From: Thermococcus henrietii
Lineage (GTDB): Archaea; Methanobacteriota_B; Thermococci; Thermococcales; Thermococcaceae
Direction of reading: 5' to 3'
NCBI RefSeq assembly: GCF_900198835.1
Contig: NZ_LT900021.1
Span: 1,860,001-1,924,000, forward strand
Length of the DNA stretch: 64,000 bases
Shown one piece after another: positions 2,305 through 39,237 of this stretch (position 1 is its first letter; every line of letters starts with the position of its first letter). Both the position numbers and the translations under genes were made by a program. Under the pieces are notes generated by a model. That model saw nothing but the letters and a program-made list of their open reading frames with translations. It was not told the origin of the DNA and ran no database searches.

Positions 2305-2366
2305 GAGCACCACCTTTTACACCCGCTTTGGAATCCGCTTTATAAACCTAACCCGCTTAAACACTT

Positions 2367-5497
<3,131 letters not shown>

Positions 5498-6427: not shown

Positions 6428-6487
6428 TTGTCAGAAAAGTGTAAAAATTGGGAGTTTTTAAGGCTTATTTTGACAGAAAAATGTCAA
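6428..6487 (-). promoter_or_regulatory. purS promoter with paired palindromic operator
   Basis: Two related 18-base elements lie exactly 42 bases apart. The distal one, 6470-6487, is TTGACAGAAAAATGTCAA, with perfect TTGACA/TGTCAA arms. The proximal one, 6428-6445, is TTGTCAGAAAAGTGTAAA, identical at 14 of 18 positions. Between them on the minus strand lies a TATA-like CCTTAAAAAC (6454-6463). Transcription would start inside the proximal copy, just ahead of the ribosome site. The same arrangement is found at other pur genes. A repressor site is inferred; no regulator is identified. Confidence 0.65.
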
Positions 6488-12327: not shown

Positions 12328-12344
12328 GAGCTTCACCATTTATC

Positions 12345-12392
12345 TGTCAAAAACTTAGCTTTTTAAGGTTTATTTTTAGTTTTTTATGTTAA
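12345..12392 (-). promoter_or_regulatory. purD promoter with two operator half-sites 42 bp apart
   Basis: Plus-strand TGTCAA (12345-12350) and TGTTAA (12387-12392) are spaced exactly 42 bases, as at purS. On the minus strand they read TTGACAGATAAA and TTAACATAAAAA, so the A-rich spacer is kept too. The second arms are weak here. The TATA-like CCTTAAAAAGC (around 12358-12368) lies between them. The proximal site is just upstream of the purD ribosome site. Confidence 0.55.
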
Positions 12393-12475: not shown

Positions 12476-13138
12476 ATGGGCGGGGCCGAGCAAGTACTTA
12501 GGATGCTCCCAAGGGGAGGTGTGCTCTCACTGATTCAAGCTGACCTAGAGTCCAATGGAGAGCTCTTCTCACTCATGGCACTCCGCTGGCTACTTGAGCG
12601 GGGGGACTCCGTTTTTTTATTCCTCTATGAGCCATTCAGGGTCTTCGAGAACAACGCAAGGAACGTTGGACTTGACGTTAAGGAGTACTTGGGAAGAAAC
12701 CTCCACGTGTTTGATGCGTTCGGGAGCGTATACCACATTCCCCGTGAGGAGGAGGGAATTCATCAACTCTCAGGCTACCTTGACGACTCTGTTTTTATAA
12801 TAAAGCTGCGGGAGTGGGCATTGAGAACCCTCGAATCAAGGGAGTGGCGGAACCTCTGGATTTTCACGTACACATCAACTGGAGTATGCAAACTGTTCAG
12901 AAGGCCGTACCTCGTGTACAGGATGATTTGGGCAATGAGGGAGCTCTTACTCAACAGTGCCGACAACAGGGGGACCGTTTTAACACTGTCCGAGCCGGAG
13001 TGTCCAGAGATAAGTAGCCTAGCATACATAACCTCGGACGTTGTTATTGAAACACACGTGGTCGGCGGCAGAAGGGTCGGCATAGTGACCAAGGGGCCGA
13101 ACGAGGGGAGGGTGTTTGAACTGTTCGGGGGTGAGTGA
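12476..13138 (+). CDS. RecA/KaiC-fold-like protein, first of a paralogous pair
   Basis: This 220-residue protein is probably cytoplasmic and I cannot name it with certainty. It shares a pattern with its neighbour at 13139: a charged turn RGDSVFLFLYEP, then G-x-D-x-x-x-YL, then LHVFDAFGSVY, which resembles the beta-alpha units and acidic strand of KaiC/RecA-like folds such as those in Thermococcales DUF257 proteins. No intact Walker A motif is visible (GGVLSLIQAD is the nearest). The ATG at 12476 follows GGGGATGAACC, and a TATA-like TTTATAATC lies near 12438. It is joined to the next gene, which starts right after its stop. Confidence 0.65.
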   Translation: MGGAEQVLRMLPRGGVLSLIQADLESNGELFSLMALRWLLERGDSVFLFLYEPFRVFENNARNVGLDVKEYLGRNLHVFDAFGSVYHIPREEEGIHQLSGYLDDSVFIIKLREWALRTLESREWRNLWIFTYTSTGVCKLFRRPYLVYRMIWAMRELLLNSADNRGTVLTLSEPECPEISSLAYITSDVVIETHVVGGRRVGIVTKGPNEGRVFELFGGE

Positions 13139-13900
13139 ATGCCATCATGGGAAATCCCAGCACTCGACGAAACGCTTGGAGAACTCAAGAAGTACTCCTT
13201 CGTTTTAATACATGAAGTGGACCCGAGGGCAAGGGGAAAGGAAATCCTCCTACACATCCTCAGGGAAAAGCTCAAGCGAGGAGACCTCGTGGGGTACTTT
13301 AACATCTCCTATCCCATACACATCCTCATGAAGGCCTTTGAAGTCTCTGGAATAGACGCAAGAAAGTACCTGAATGAGGAAAACCTAGCGATAATAGACA
13401 CCTTCGGAAGTTTTTACGACGTCGTCAGCAACCTTGGCGGTGTCTGGTACCTAAGGGGGTCCCTCTCGGCGGACGTTCTTCCAGCCAAGTACGTAGAGGT
13501 TGTTGAGGCCCATAAGAAGCGATGGGCTAAGCTCAAAATGTTCCAGGGGCGGGAGCTCTACGGGTTCGCAATGGACGTATCGGACTACATAGACATGCTC
13601 GGTGGAGAGTCCGAGACCTTGCGCTACCTCGAAATCTCGGCCGAGCTGAGGGCCAACGCGAGGGCCTACAGAGAATACCCAAAGGGAACGAACTTCTGGC
13701 TTTGGGGAAGGAAGGGAGGTTTAAGGGTGCTCGCCTCGGTTTACAGGCGCGCAACCTACGTCCTGCGCGTGAGGAGCGAACTCAGCGGGGACAGAGTGGT
13801 AAGGTACCTGGAGGTCCTTAAGGCACCGGACATTGGAGGAGAAGTCATCAAGTTTGCATATCACTTTGAGAACGGTGTTCCTGTCCTAAGAAGGGTTTAA
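13139..13900 (+). CDS. RecA/KaiC-fold-like protein, second of a paralogous pair
   Basis: This 253-residue protein is paralogous to the preceding gene: RGDLVGYFNISYP, GIDARKYLNEENL and AIIDTFGSFYDV line up with the matching segments there. No nucleotide-binding loop is evident, so if the fold is RecA-like it has probably lost ATPase activity. The C-terminal part has basic strands (GGLRVLASVYRRATYVLRVR). The start abuts the stop of 12476-13138, and GGGGGTGAGTGA just upstream serves as ribosome site. The pair sits between purD and purE but shares no visible purine role. Confidence 0.65.
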   Translation: MPSWEIPALDETLGELKKYSFVLIHEVDPRARGKEILLHILREKLKRGDLVGYFNISYPIHILMKAFEVSGIDARKYLNEENLAIIDTFGSFYDVVSNLGGVWYLRGSLSADVLPAKYVEVVEAHKKRWAKLKMFQGRELYGFAMDVSDYIDMLGGESETLRYLEISAELRANARAYREYPKGTNFWLWGRKGGLRVLASVYRRATYVLRVRSELSGDRVVRYLEVLKAPDIGGEVIKFAYHFENGVPVLRRV

Positions 13901-13956
13901 CCCAAATCTGATAATTTTTTAGGAAATTTTTTAAAGTTTTAACTTTTTTATGTCAA
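13897..13956 (+). promoter_or_regulatory. purE promoter with paired operator elements
   Basis: The proximal element, 13939-13956, is TTAACTTTTTTATGTCAA, matching 10 of 12 arm positions of TTGACA-N6-TGTCAA. The distal one, 13897-13914, is TTAACCCAAATCTGATAA and matches 8 of 12. They are 42 bases apart, and a TATA-like TTTTTTAAAG (13928-13937) lies between. The proximal element and the following bases are nearly the same as those before purF. The distal copy is weak on its own and is supported mainly by its spacing. Confidence 0.5.
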
Positions 13957-16025: not shown

Positions 16026-16086
16026 TTGACGTTTTGATGTTAAAAACTTATGGTATTTAAGCCTTTTTTTAACAGAAAAATGGTGA
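16026..16086 (-). promoter_or_regulatory. purT promoter with paired operator elements
   Basis: The proximal element, 16026-16043, is TTGACGTTTTGATGTTAA, matching 10 of 12 arm positions. The distal one, 16069-16086, is TTAACAGAAAAATGGTGA, whose left arm and spacer match the purS copy. They are 43 bases apart rather than 42. The minus-strand TATA-like GGCTTAAATACC (around 16051-16062) lies between them. Confidence 0.55.
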
Positions 16087-17493: not shown

Positions 17494-19427
17494 CGGTTCT
17501 TTTAACTTTCCTTCTCCTGGCTCCAATTTTTCTTCATGAGGTCAACGCCGCAAACATTCAGAGCTTCCAAGCTTATCAAATCACAATCAAAGGATTAACT
17601 TACCCCGACGTAGGAGTCTTCCTAATCCCATCAATAACTCCCTACTGGCGGGTGAATGGTTCGTTTCCGGGCGAGTACCGCCTCCTCTACTTCGCGTACC
17701 CCTCTTACCATAACATCACCAACTGGACCATCAAGTACATGAACCTCACGAACCTCCCCGGAATCACGCACAAACTCAAAAACACAACACTCCCCTGGCC
17801 AACAAACAGATTCGACGTGTTCACATACCGCATGGATTCAATTCTCCACTGGTGGGCAAGAAACGGCACAACCTACGACTACCTCTTTGAAATGGGGGGA
17901 ACAATTACGTCCAATGAAACAGTGCTACCCATAATCGCCAAGTACGGGCCAGTCAATCACCAACTGGTTGGACGTGTGGAAGGCGAGTACATCATTTTCA
18001 ATGGCTCACAAGGATTCAAAATTCCAGTCAGTGGGCTCTTGAGGTATTATCCGAAGCAACTCCTGAACGACCTCGTGGGAGTGCTTTACCAAGACGTGAT
18101 CACAACTTCCTCTGACATGACCATCCACAGGGAAGCCCTCCTCATCTACCCCCGCCACTTAAGCTACTGGAAAACCAACGGAAAAATTTACGTGGGCGTT
18201 AACTTTTCGACTGGCGTTGAACTGAACGCTAATCAATCAATCCCAATCCTCCTCTACTCGAAGGGAAAGTTGAAGCCAATAGTAGACGTTCTAAGGTTAA
18301 TTACTCCCCAAGGCGACCCCCTCAGAAACCTGAAAAACCCAATCATCACACTAACATCCCAAACATGGATAACCCCAGCAACCGAGAGCAAGCTCGTTGA
18401 CATCCTCTATGACAACATCTCTGAATTCTACGAGCTTCAATACTCCCTCGTCTCGAACGGGACTTCTGCAATCCTAATCGTTACAAGCGGTGATGCCTTC
18501 GTTCCTCCTTTAGGTGAAGAACCCCCCTCAGTGATTCCCTCCTACTACCCTTACCTTGTCGTGAACGGTGTTCCGCGGTTTTTGAACCTTTCACCCACTG
18601 TTAGGCAATTCAATCTCTCAGACTGGTCACTCTACCAATTCAAGTTCAGCGTTTGGAGGAGTCATTATGAGCTCCTCTGGGAGGAGTCTCCTCCAATGTT
18701 GAACTCTTCCATTGCTTACGTTCTCAACGGAACTTGCTGGAGGTTAATTAACAACTTTCACAACTCTCCCGGCTTCGTCGCCAACGGAACCGTTGAAGGA
18801 AACTATATGGTTTTCCGGTTTAACAGGACCACTCTAAGGATTCCACTCAGAGAATTAGCAAAGTATTACCCGCCAAAGGTTTGGGAGTGGCAGTTAGCCG
18901 CGGCGAAAGACGGGAACGGCTACCTAATAATCCCAACCGCAGGATTTGATTATGGTGTTGTTCCCCTGATATTCGGTCCAGGAAATTTTCTCCTGCCGGT
19001 GGATACTTCCTCCGAGGTTTATACATCGGGTGTTTATGCTCTTTATTATGTGGATGGGAGTTTGAAGCCGGTTTTTGATTTGCTTAGGCTTATGAGCCCC
19101 CAGGGAGACTTAGTCAGGAACCTGCCGAACCCGTTTAACTCCAGCGTGAGTTTTGGGTTGTGCAGTGCTGAAAGGAGGGGGAATGCCAATAGCTCAACGA
19201 TAAGGGTGAGCAGAAACACGACCACGACCATTCGGGAGAATACGACACTCCCCAGCACGAACACCACAGGGGGAGCAAATGAAACGCCCGTACACTCAAA
19301 CAAAACACGAACAAACACAACCACAACCCCAACATCAACAACCACAAAAGAAAAAAACATCTGCGGACCCGGACTCGTAGTCATAACTGCCATCTTGCCC
19401 CTCCTTCTGAGGCGTCCTCAGAATTAA
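17478..19427 (+). CDS. Large secreted CGP-CTERM surface protein with internal duplication
   Basis: This 649-residue protein has a signal peptide (VVAVLLTFLLLAPIFLHEVNA) and a long extracellular region with dozens of N-x-S/T sequons. Two related halves are visible: GRVEGEYIIF near residue 170 pairs with GTVEGNYMVF near 440, and SKGKLKPIVDVLRL with VDGSLKPVFDLLRL. A Thr/Asn-rich linker follows (about 565-625), then the terminal ICGPGLVV, a hydrophobic helix and RRPQN. That is the CGP-CTERM sorting signal of Thermococcaceae, taken to anchor surface proteins. It overlaps the DUF4855-like gene by 16 bases. Function unknown. Confidence 0.82.
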   Translation: MSRVVAVLLTFLLLAPIFLHEVNAANIQSFQAYQITIKGLTYPDVGVFLIPSITPYWRVNGSFPGEYRLLYFAYPSYHNITNWTIKYMNLTNLPGITHKLKNTTLPWPTNRFDVFTYRMDSILHWWARNGTTYDYLFEMGGTITSNETVLPIIAKYGPVNHQLVGRVEGEYIIFNGSQGFKIPVSGLLRYYPKQLLNDLVGVLYQDVITTSSDMTIHREALLIYPRHLSYWKTNGKIYVGVNFSTGVELNANQSIPILLYSKGKLKPIVDVLRLITPQGDPLRNLKNPIITLTSQTWITPATESKLVDILYDNISEFYELQYSLVSNGTSAILIVTSGDAFVPPLGEEPPSVIPSYYPYLVVNGVPRFLNLSPTVRQFNLSDWSLYQFKFSVWRSHYELLWEESPPMLNSSIAYVLNGTCWRLINNFHNSPGFVANGTVEGNYMVFRFNRTTLRIPLRELAKYYPPKVWEWQLAAAKDGNGYLIIPTAGFDYGVVPLIFGPGNFLLPVDTSSEVYTSGVYALYYVDGSLKPVFDLLRLMSPQGDLVRNLPNPFNSSVSFGLCSAERRGNANSSTIRVSRNTTTTIRENTTLPSTNTTGGANETPVHSNKTRTNTTTTPTSTTTKEKNICGPGLVVITAILPLLLRRPQN

Positions 19428-19496
19428 CATCAATCTGTCTAATTCTTGAGCTTTTATCTTCTCTTTTACCACAAACACGGCAAACCTTTTAAGCCC

Positions 19497-22470: not shown

Positions 22471-22530
22471 TCACCAGTTTTATGTAAAACTAGCCCACTT
22501 TTAAGGATTTTTTTGCCATTTTAATGTCAA
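22471..22530 (-). promoter_or_regulatory. purC promoter with paired operator elements
   Basis: The distal element, 22513-22530, is TTGCCATTTTAATGTCAA, matching 11 of 12 arm positions. The proximal one, 22471-22488, ends in TGTAAA and has a weak left arm that overlaps the ribosome site. They are exactly 42 bases apart, with the TATA-like CCTTAAAAG (around 22497-22505 on the minus strand) between them. Confidence 0.58.
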
Positions 22531-22589
22531 AACATGGGCAAAGCTTTTAAACACGGATGACTAAATTCGACCGGCTTAACGGAATGCCA

Positions 22590-22607
22590 TTAACTTTCAC
22601 ATGTCAA
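22590..22607 (+). promoter_or_regulatory. purF operator element
   Basis: TTAACTTTCACATGTCAA lies directly before the purF ribosome site GGTGGTGGCG and matches 10 of 12 arm positions. Its arms are identical to those of the proximal purE element. A TATA-like CTTTTAAAC at 22544-22552 lies about 40 bases upstream. A second copy at the expected 42-base distance is not convincing here. Confidence 0.5.
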
Positions 22608-25929: not shown

Positions 25930-26127
25930 GCTACCACCGTATTGGCAAGAAAAAGTCAAAATTAAAAAGTTTTCTGGCCAAAATTGAGTAGAATTCGTTA
26001 ATTACGAGGATGCTAATTAAAGTCTACAATTAGTTATATAACTATATACTAAATCACTTAACAATAAACAAATGCAAAAATTAAAGACAAAAACTTTAAA
26101 TATAAATTTAATAAGTAAAACGTGGTG
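25930..26127. other. AT-rich intergenic region with a perfect palindrome
   Basis: This 198-base gap is far richer in AT than its surroundings. It holds the perfect 14-base palindrome TAGTTATATAACTA (26031-26044) and a TATA-like CTTTAAATATAAA (26094-26106) that would serve the decayed cassette downstream. I see no gene in it. Confidence 0.5.
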
Positions 26128-37564: not shown

Positions 37565-39046
<1,482 letters not shown>

Positions 39047-39237
39047 TTAACATGAACTTGGAGGGCATTTTTAAGGGTTTCGAGCGAGTGATGGCCTGTA
39101 AATTCGTCACGTCTGACCGCAGTAATGTGACATTATGACAAAGGAGTAGGGATTTCCGGTGAAGATTCCGTCTAGTGTACAAAAAAGCTCCCGAAAAGCC
39201 AATATAGAACATTGTAGTCCGCTCTACGGTGATTGCC

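Follow-up and report, generated by a model that had tools for sequence, protein, structure and literature searches.

The window, by which we mean the whole stretch of DNA analysed (64,000 nucleotides, G000:C1:1860001-1924000), belongs to the complete 2.16-Mb genome of the Thermococcaceae member Thermococcus henrietii and holds most of the genes of the purine pathway: those encoding the guaA subunits, two PurP paralogues, purL, purQ, purS, purD, purE, purT, purM (identified by its match to TIGR00878), purC, purF and guaB. Promoters of this pathway carry pairs of similar elements; once promoters are aligned, each element is seen to be an 18-bp imperfect palindrome, TTgACA-N6-TGtcAA, longer than a short half-site, and the spacer between paired boxes measures 24-25 bp. 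The original prediction placed the two copies 42 bp apart at purS, purD, purE and purC and 43 bp apart at purT, distances that the exact starts of the boxes confirm; the span to which it was attached, 12345-12392, lies within the purD pair but clips it, the full pair occupying 12333-12392. The pairs of the window are as follows.

2316..2375, minus strand: guaA (synthetase subunit) pair; box1 2358-2375, TATA 2339-2349, weak box2 2316-2333; 42 bp
6428..6487, minus strand: purS(QL) pair; box1 6470-6487 TTGACATTTTTCTGTCAA, TATA 6455-6463 CCTTAAAAA, box2 6428-6445 TTTACACTTTTCTGACAA; 42 bp
12333..12392, minus strand: purD pair; box1 12375-12392 TTAACATAAAAAACTAAA, TATA 12360-12368, box2 12333-12350 TTGACAGATAAATGGTGA; 42 bp
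13897..13956, plus strand: purE pair; box1 13897-13914, TATA 13926-13936, box2 13939-13956; 42 bp
16026..16086, minus strand: purT pair; box1 16069-16086, TATA 16054-16063, box2 16026-16043; 43 bp
19424..19493, plus strand: purM pair; boxes 19424-19441 and 19466-19483, 42 bp; TATA 19485-19493 outside, downstream of the pair
22471..22530, minus strand: purC pair; box1 22513-22530, TATA 22498-22506, box2 22471-22488; 42 bp
22543..22607, plus strand: purF pair; TATA 22543-22551 overlapping weak box1 22548-22565, box2 22590-22607; 42 bp
25942..26001, minus strand: possible pair at a molybdopterin oxidoreductase/formate dehydrogenase-like gene; box2 25942-25959, weak box1 25984-26001; 42 bp
38994..39064, minus strand: guaB pair; start-site box 39047-39064 (weak in the window), coding-sequence box 38994-39011 TGAACACAAACTTGTTAA; 53 bp

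The divergent purC and purF pairs form together a four-box array with distances 42-35-42. At purD, purC, purP and purB, box2 carries TGGTGA at the end of its 3' half, and operator and Shine-Dalgarno sequence thus overlap; at purD this TGGTGA doubles as a Shine-Dalgarno-like GGTGA. Two other features of the neighbourhood may be recorded here: the two genes for the GMP synthase subunits are separated by a PIN-domain-like toxin and a small antitoxin-like ORF, recognized by eye (687-1384), and between purD and purE (12476-13900) there are two adjacent ORFs that found no match in NCBIfam, the first having no Pfam match either.

Genome-wide lists of sites were obtained from pattern searches. The fixed-spacing pattern (two boxes, 42 bp, up to three mismatches) gave eight forward and seven reverse matches in the 2.16-Mb genome, and none when the pattern was reversed; with up to two mismatches, pairs are found in 79 of the 81 genomes of the family, the control remaining close to zero. 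Chance matches in AT-rich DNA were considered as an explanation and are ruled out by the reversed-pattern and shuffle controls. In a class-wide pattern search, matches outside Thermococcaceae were only chance-like; in two families of the class (f4 and f5), such pairs are absent and the protein discussed below as candidate repressor is present.

The distance between the boxes was examined across relatives in two ways. In a scan free of any distance rule, carried out with a single-box matrix on about 170 loci from six Thermococcaceae genera, pairs were found at 42 bp (163) and 43 bp (25), with only single matches falling at other distances; the values 35, 77-79 and 119-121 stem from the four-box purC-purF array and 53 from guaB. 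In a second test, in which the two top-scoring boxes of each promoter were taken using a matrix built only from the boxes of the window, the distance was 42 or 43 bp in 210 of 216 promoters, as compared to 15 of 555 shuffled sequences and 0 of 30 promoters of two control genes. Gene by gene, these distances were found for purT (32/33), purD (31/31), purS (25/25), purL (18/18), purE (30/32), purC (37/40), purP (4/4), the purine permease (30/30) and guaA (3/3), as well as in 33 of 33 purM promoters and in 28 of 30 promoters of purB, a held-out gene chosen afterwards. The promoters of related genomes are non-independent samples, and the purT and purM promoters, like some of those of purD and purE, have DNA in common; counted as separate promoter families, about eleven agree on 42-43 bp, and phased pairs are present at nearly all purine genes of Thermococcaceae. 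Inspection of orthologous promoters had been put forward as a check of the original prediction, which variable spacing in relatives would have contradicted; such variability is not seen, and the claim that the spacing is a whole number of helical turns holds for the conserved 42-43 bp and extends to the 52-53 bp found at guaB.

That the TATA box lies between the two copies, as had also been proposed, is true of purS, purD, purC, purT, purE and guaA; at purF the TATA box overlaps the edge of box1, and at purM and guaB it is outside the pair, the spacing staying at 42-43 bp or, for guaB, at 52-53 bp. In most genomes purM shares a pair with the divergent purT; in the window the two genes are apart and purM keeps a 42-bp pair of its own. 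Since the TATA box is not always enclosed, the blocking of TBP by a sandwiched TATA box cannot explain the spacing and has to be given up as its reason. The 42 bp might alternatively follow from the architecture of the promoter: were the boxes pinned independently, to the TATA/BRE and to the start site, the fixed distance from TATA to start would set the spacing and the dimers would not touch. The commonest arrangement (purS, purD, purL, purC, purT, purP and the permease), in which the TATA box starts 5-6 bp past box1 and box2 lies over the start region, is in favour of such a reading. At guaA and purE, however, the TATA box is displaced 3-8 bp further away (at the purE of the window, its distance from box1 exceeds the usual one by about 7 bp) and the boxes are still 42-43 bp apart; among 176 pairs the standard deviation of the TATA offset is 1.6 bp versus 0.33 for the box spacing, the flanking distances compensating each other with r = -0.98. 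Together with the displacements at purF, purM and guaB, these data largely refute the pinning of boxes to the promoter, which we regard as very unlikely. Given that the spacing is fixed while the TATA box moves, the conserved quantity is the box-to-box distance with its helical phase, as is predicted by a same-face contact of two bound dimers; this conservation suggests a putative contact between them.

The guaB promoter offers a five-turn variant of the same arrangement. Of 11 genomes, 10 show a distance of 53 bp between its boxes and one a distance of 52 bp; the second box falls inside the coding sequence, at codons 4-10, where the box codons are nearly frozen (TTT 11/11, AAA 11/11, CTT 10/11) and the neighbouring codons vary. 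The distances in use amount to four or five whole turns; half-turn distances are unused, with the exception of the 35 bp separating the purC and purF pairs, and this use of whole turns favours two dimers touching on the same face of the DNA. The original prediction had spoken of a dimer-of-dimers or of a looped repressor; phased pairing is strongly supported by the above results, and the sequence is compatible with a loop as well as with direct contact. A loop or wrap that a large oligomer or an architectural protein holds together, in place of direct contact of the dimers, would be in line with the use of two phased distances and with the report that B. subtilis PurR extends along the DNA and alters supercoiling (PMC8789054). 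We consider it doubtful, since in any one promoter family the distances differ by just 1 bp, and a spacer of 24 bp leaves little room for a free loop, rendering the latter unlikely.

Boxes are also found at the purine permease gene (L014, C1:856681), at purB and at purA, so that the regulon spans transport and the synthesis of IMP, AMP and GMP; at purA (L390, C1:1695140) one strong box is accompanied, by eye, by a weak partner 43 bp downstream. The formate dehydrogenase-like gene, which adjoins purF, has its 42-bp pair in three genomes, the pair being stronger in L195 (3410) and L211 than in the window, and may belong to the purine regulon; formate is used by PurT and, in the archaea, also by PurP, so that a pair at this gene would be understandable. 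There are two further sites. One is a pair of moderate boxes, 42 bp apart, that lies upstream of a gene resembling glutamine synthetase (L013:1501-1560, C1:429170-429229) and is either a regulon member or a chance match; the other is a single box, strong at 22 bits, close to the 3' end of a gene resembling PRPP synthetase (L373:1501-1518, C1:82709), with no clear promoter.

As for the protein that reads the boxes, a search of the T. henrietii genome gave seven PRTase-domain proteins, one of which (C1:812389-813102; L159:1180-1896) is composed of an N-terminal HTH_3 domain (Pfam, 14-62) and a C-terminal PRTase domain, and is hereafter called the HTH-PRTase protein. Its top NCBIfam match is PRK08558, 'adenine phosphoribosyltransferase' (full length, 360.1 bits against a cut-off of 184), followed by TIGR01743, the Bacillus pur operon repressor (residues 82-228, E 5.9e-22), for which it stays below the whole-protein cut-off (77.9 versus 258.7 bits); in a diverse alignment, each of the 18 members matches the TIGR01743 profile, and the best PDB sequence matches are to B. 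subtilis PurR (1p4a, E 3.1e-15). The PRPP loop DDVIRSGET is nearly invariant. The catalytic loop of APRT, SYxLEYG with its catalytic Glu, has as counterpart SYVPSASG, which contains no Glu and aligns ungapped with PurR (YVPSASG/YVSGSSN) and gapped with the APRT 4m0k. The AlphaFold model, of high confidence (pLDDT 92.7), matches APRTs and PurR alike, and fold comparison was therefore dropped as a means of discriminating between the two.

The gene of the HTH-PRTase protein has in its own promoter one box over the TATA in 51 of 51 genomes examined, belonging to six genera; in T. henrietii this box is one of four perfect motif matches in the genome. The protein is matched in 81 of 81 genomes of the family, the match in G042, an incomplete genome, being weak and partial. 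A co-occurrence test of regulator and pathway was uninformative, the regulator being found in every genome, including those without purS and purC. Both of these genes went unmatched in G010, G045, G053, G069 and G076, all five of which have the regulator, the permease and the permease pairs; in particular, G010 keeps the HTH-PRTase protein and a 43-bp permease pair, and G045 keeps the protein and 42/43 pairs at the permease and at purB. In loci L357-L361, which come from two further families of the class, a weak box-like palindrome lies at the start site of the regulator gene, at position -17 in five of five cases, which suggests that a form of self-control of this gene may be older.

A search of the available literature found no paper on the HTH-PRTase regulator. 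On the sequence evidence it is probably the purine repressor, of which it is the best candidate, misnamed as an enzyme; we infer that it binds DNA, responds to PRPP and forms tetramers. The boxes may instead be read by another regulator, for example of Lrp-, TrmB- or other HTH type, the HTH-PRTase protein being a mere target or an APRT enzyme: the NCBIfam name is that of APRT, Foldseek with the whole model ranks APRT enzymes above PurR, the seven PRTase genes of T. henrietii include no evident separate APRT, and the box in the promoter of the protein would be explained by its being a target alone. Weighed against this are the union of an HTH with a PurR-like PRTase, the constancy of the box on its own TATA, the presence of the protein wherever pairs exist, and the alignment of the loop after SY, so that another reader of the boxes appears unlikely to us; the HTH-PRTase protein could nevertheless be an enzyme, or bifunctional, and its presence in f4 and f5, where such pairs are absent, also counts against the role of repressor.

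We consider it likely that the paired boxes serve as operators for a repressor of purine synthesis, which acts as phased dimers in contact, with the HTH-PRTase protein as best candidate and PRPP as the releasing signal. Each palindrome would bind one dimer; two dimers on the same face of the DNA would touch, yielding cooperative binding, and the distance would be set by this protein-protein contact. The bound dimers would cover the BRE/TATA, the start site or both, and TBP/TFB or the polymerase would be blocked. The HTH_3-PRTase protein would also repress itself via the single box on its own TATA; both boxes of a pair would be occupied at a PRPP level that is low in relation to purines, and high PRPP would cause release as purines become scarce, as with Bacillus PurR. 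For the wider proposal, namely that a PRPP-sensing protein joining HTH_3 to a PurR-like PRTase runs the whole Thermococcaceae purine pathway through a dimer-of-dimers set at whole turns (four or five), wherever the TATA box lies, we see the chances as evenly balanced.

What is offered is a testable candidate regulator, together with an operator code, for purine synthesis in a major group of model hyperthermophilic archaea, and the suggestion that a protein publicly annotated as an enzyme is a switch of the purine pathway. The natural variants (TATA inside, overlapping or outside the pair; four versus five turns) uncouple operator spacing from promoter geometry, and allow the dependence of repression on helical phase to be tested simply at an archaeal TBP/TFB promoter. 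A regulon of purine metabolism and transport in Pyrococcus, a member of the same family, was reportedly predicted by Gelfand, Koonin and Mironov (NAR 2000), who are said to have neither named the regulator nor analysed phasing across genera; their sites are almost certainly the same as the Thermococcaceae boxes. As far as we have checked, the phasing analysis, the 53-bp guaB pair with its coding-sequence box and the candidate repressor are new.

Among known systems, E. coli PurR, of the LacI family, likewise has purine genes as targets of repression; it consists of a LacI HTH and a sugar-binding-like domain, whereas the domain search of the HTH-PRTase protein returned no LacI-type domains. The GfcR/PyrE-like archaeal regulators (NF045507, PRK02277) share the fusion of an HTH to a PRTase-fold domain, but the HTH-PRTase protein scores much lower than their cut-offs require (25 of 300 bits and 41.9 of 115, respectively). 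Bacillus PurR shares several features with the system described here: paired palindromic boxes whose spacing is nearly constant and allows one additional base (16/17 bp there, 24/25 bp here), targets among pur, gua and transport genes, and a PRTase effector domain, to which the PRTase half of the Thermococcaceae protein is most closely related. The N-terminal DNA-binding domain of Bacillus PurR is a winged helix, unlike the HTH_3 found here. In B. subtilis, where PRPP acts as inducer, one PurR dimer binds each 14-bp PurBox and 16-17 bp separate the two boxes (PMC8789054). The Thermococcaceae boxes differ as well, being 18-bp TTGACA-N6-TGTCAA elements rather than 14-bp PurBoxes with a CGAA core, and are placed four turns apart, instead of about three, on an archaeal BRE/TATA promoter; if our reading is true, Thermococcaceae would employ a repressor logic based on paired boxes, similar to that of Bacillus PurR, with a different DNA-binding domain.
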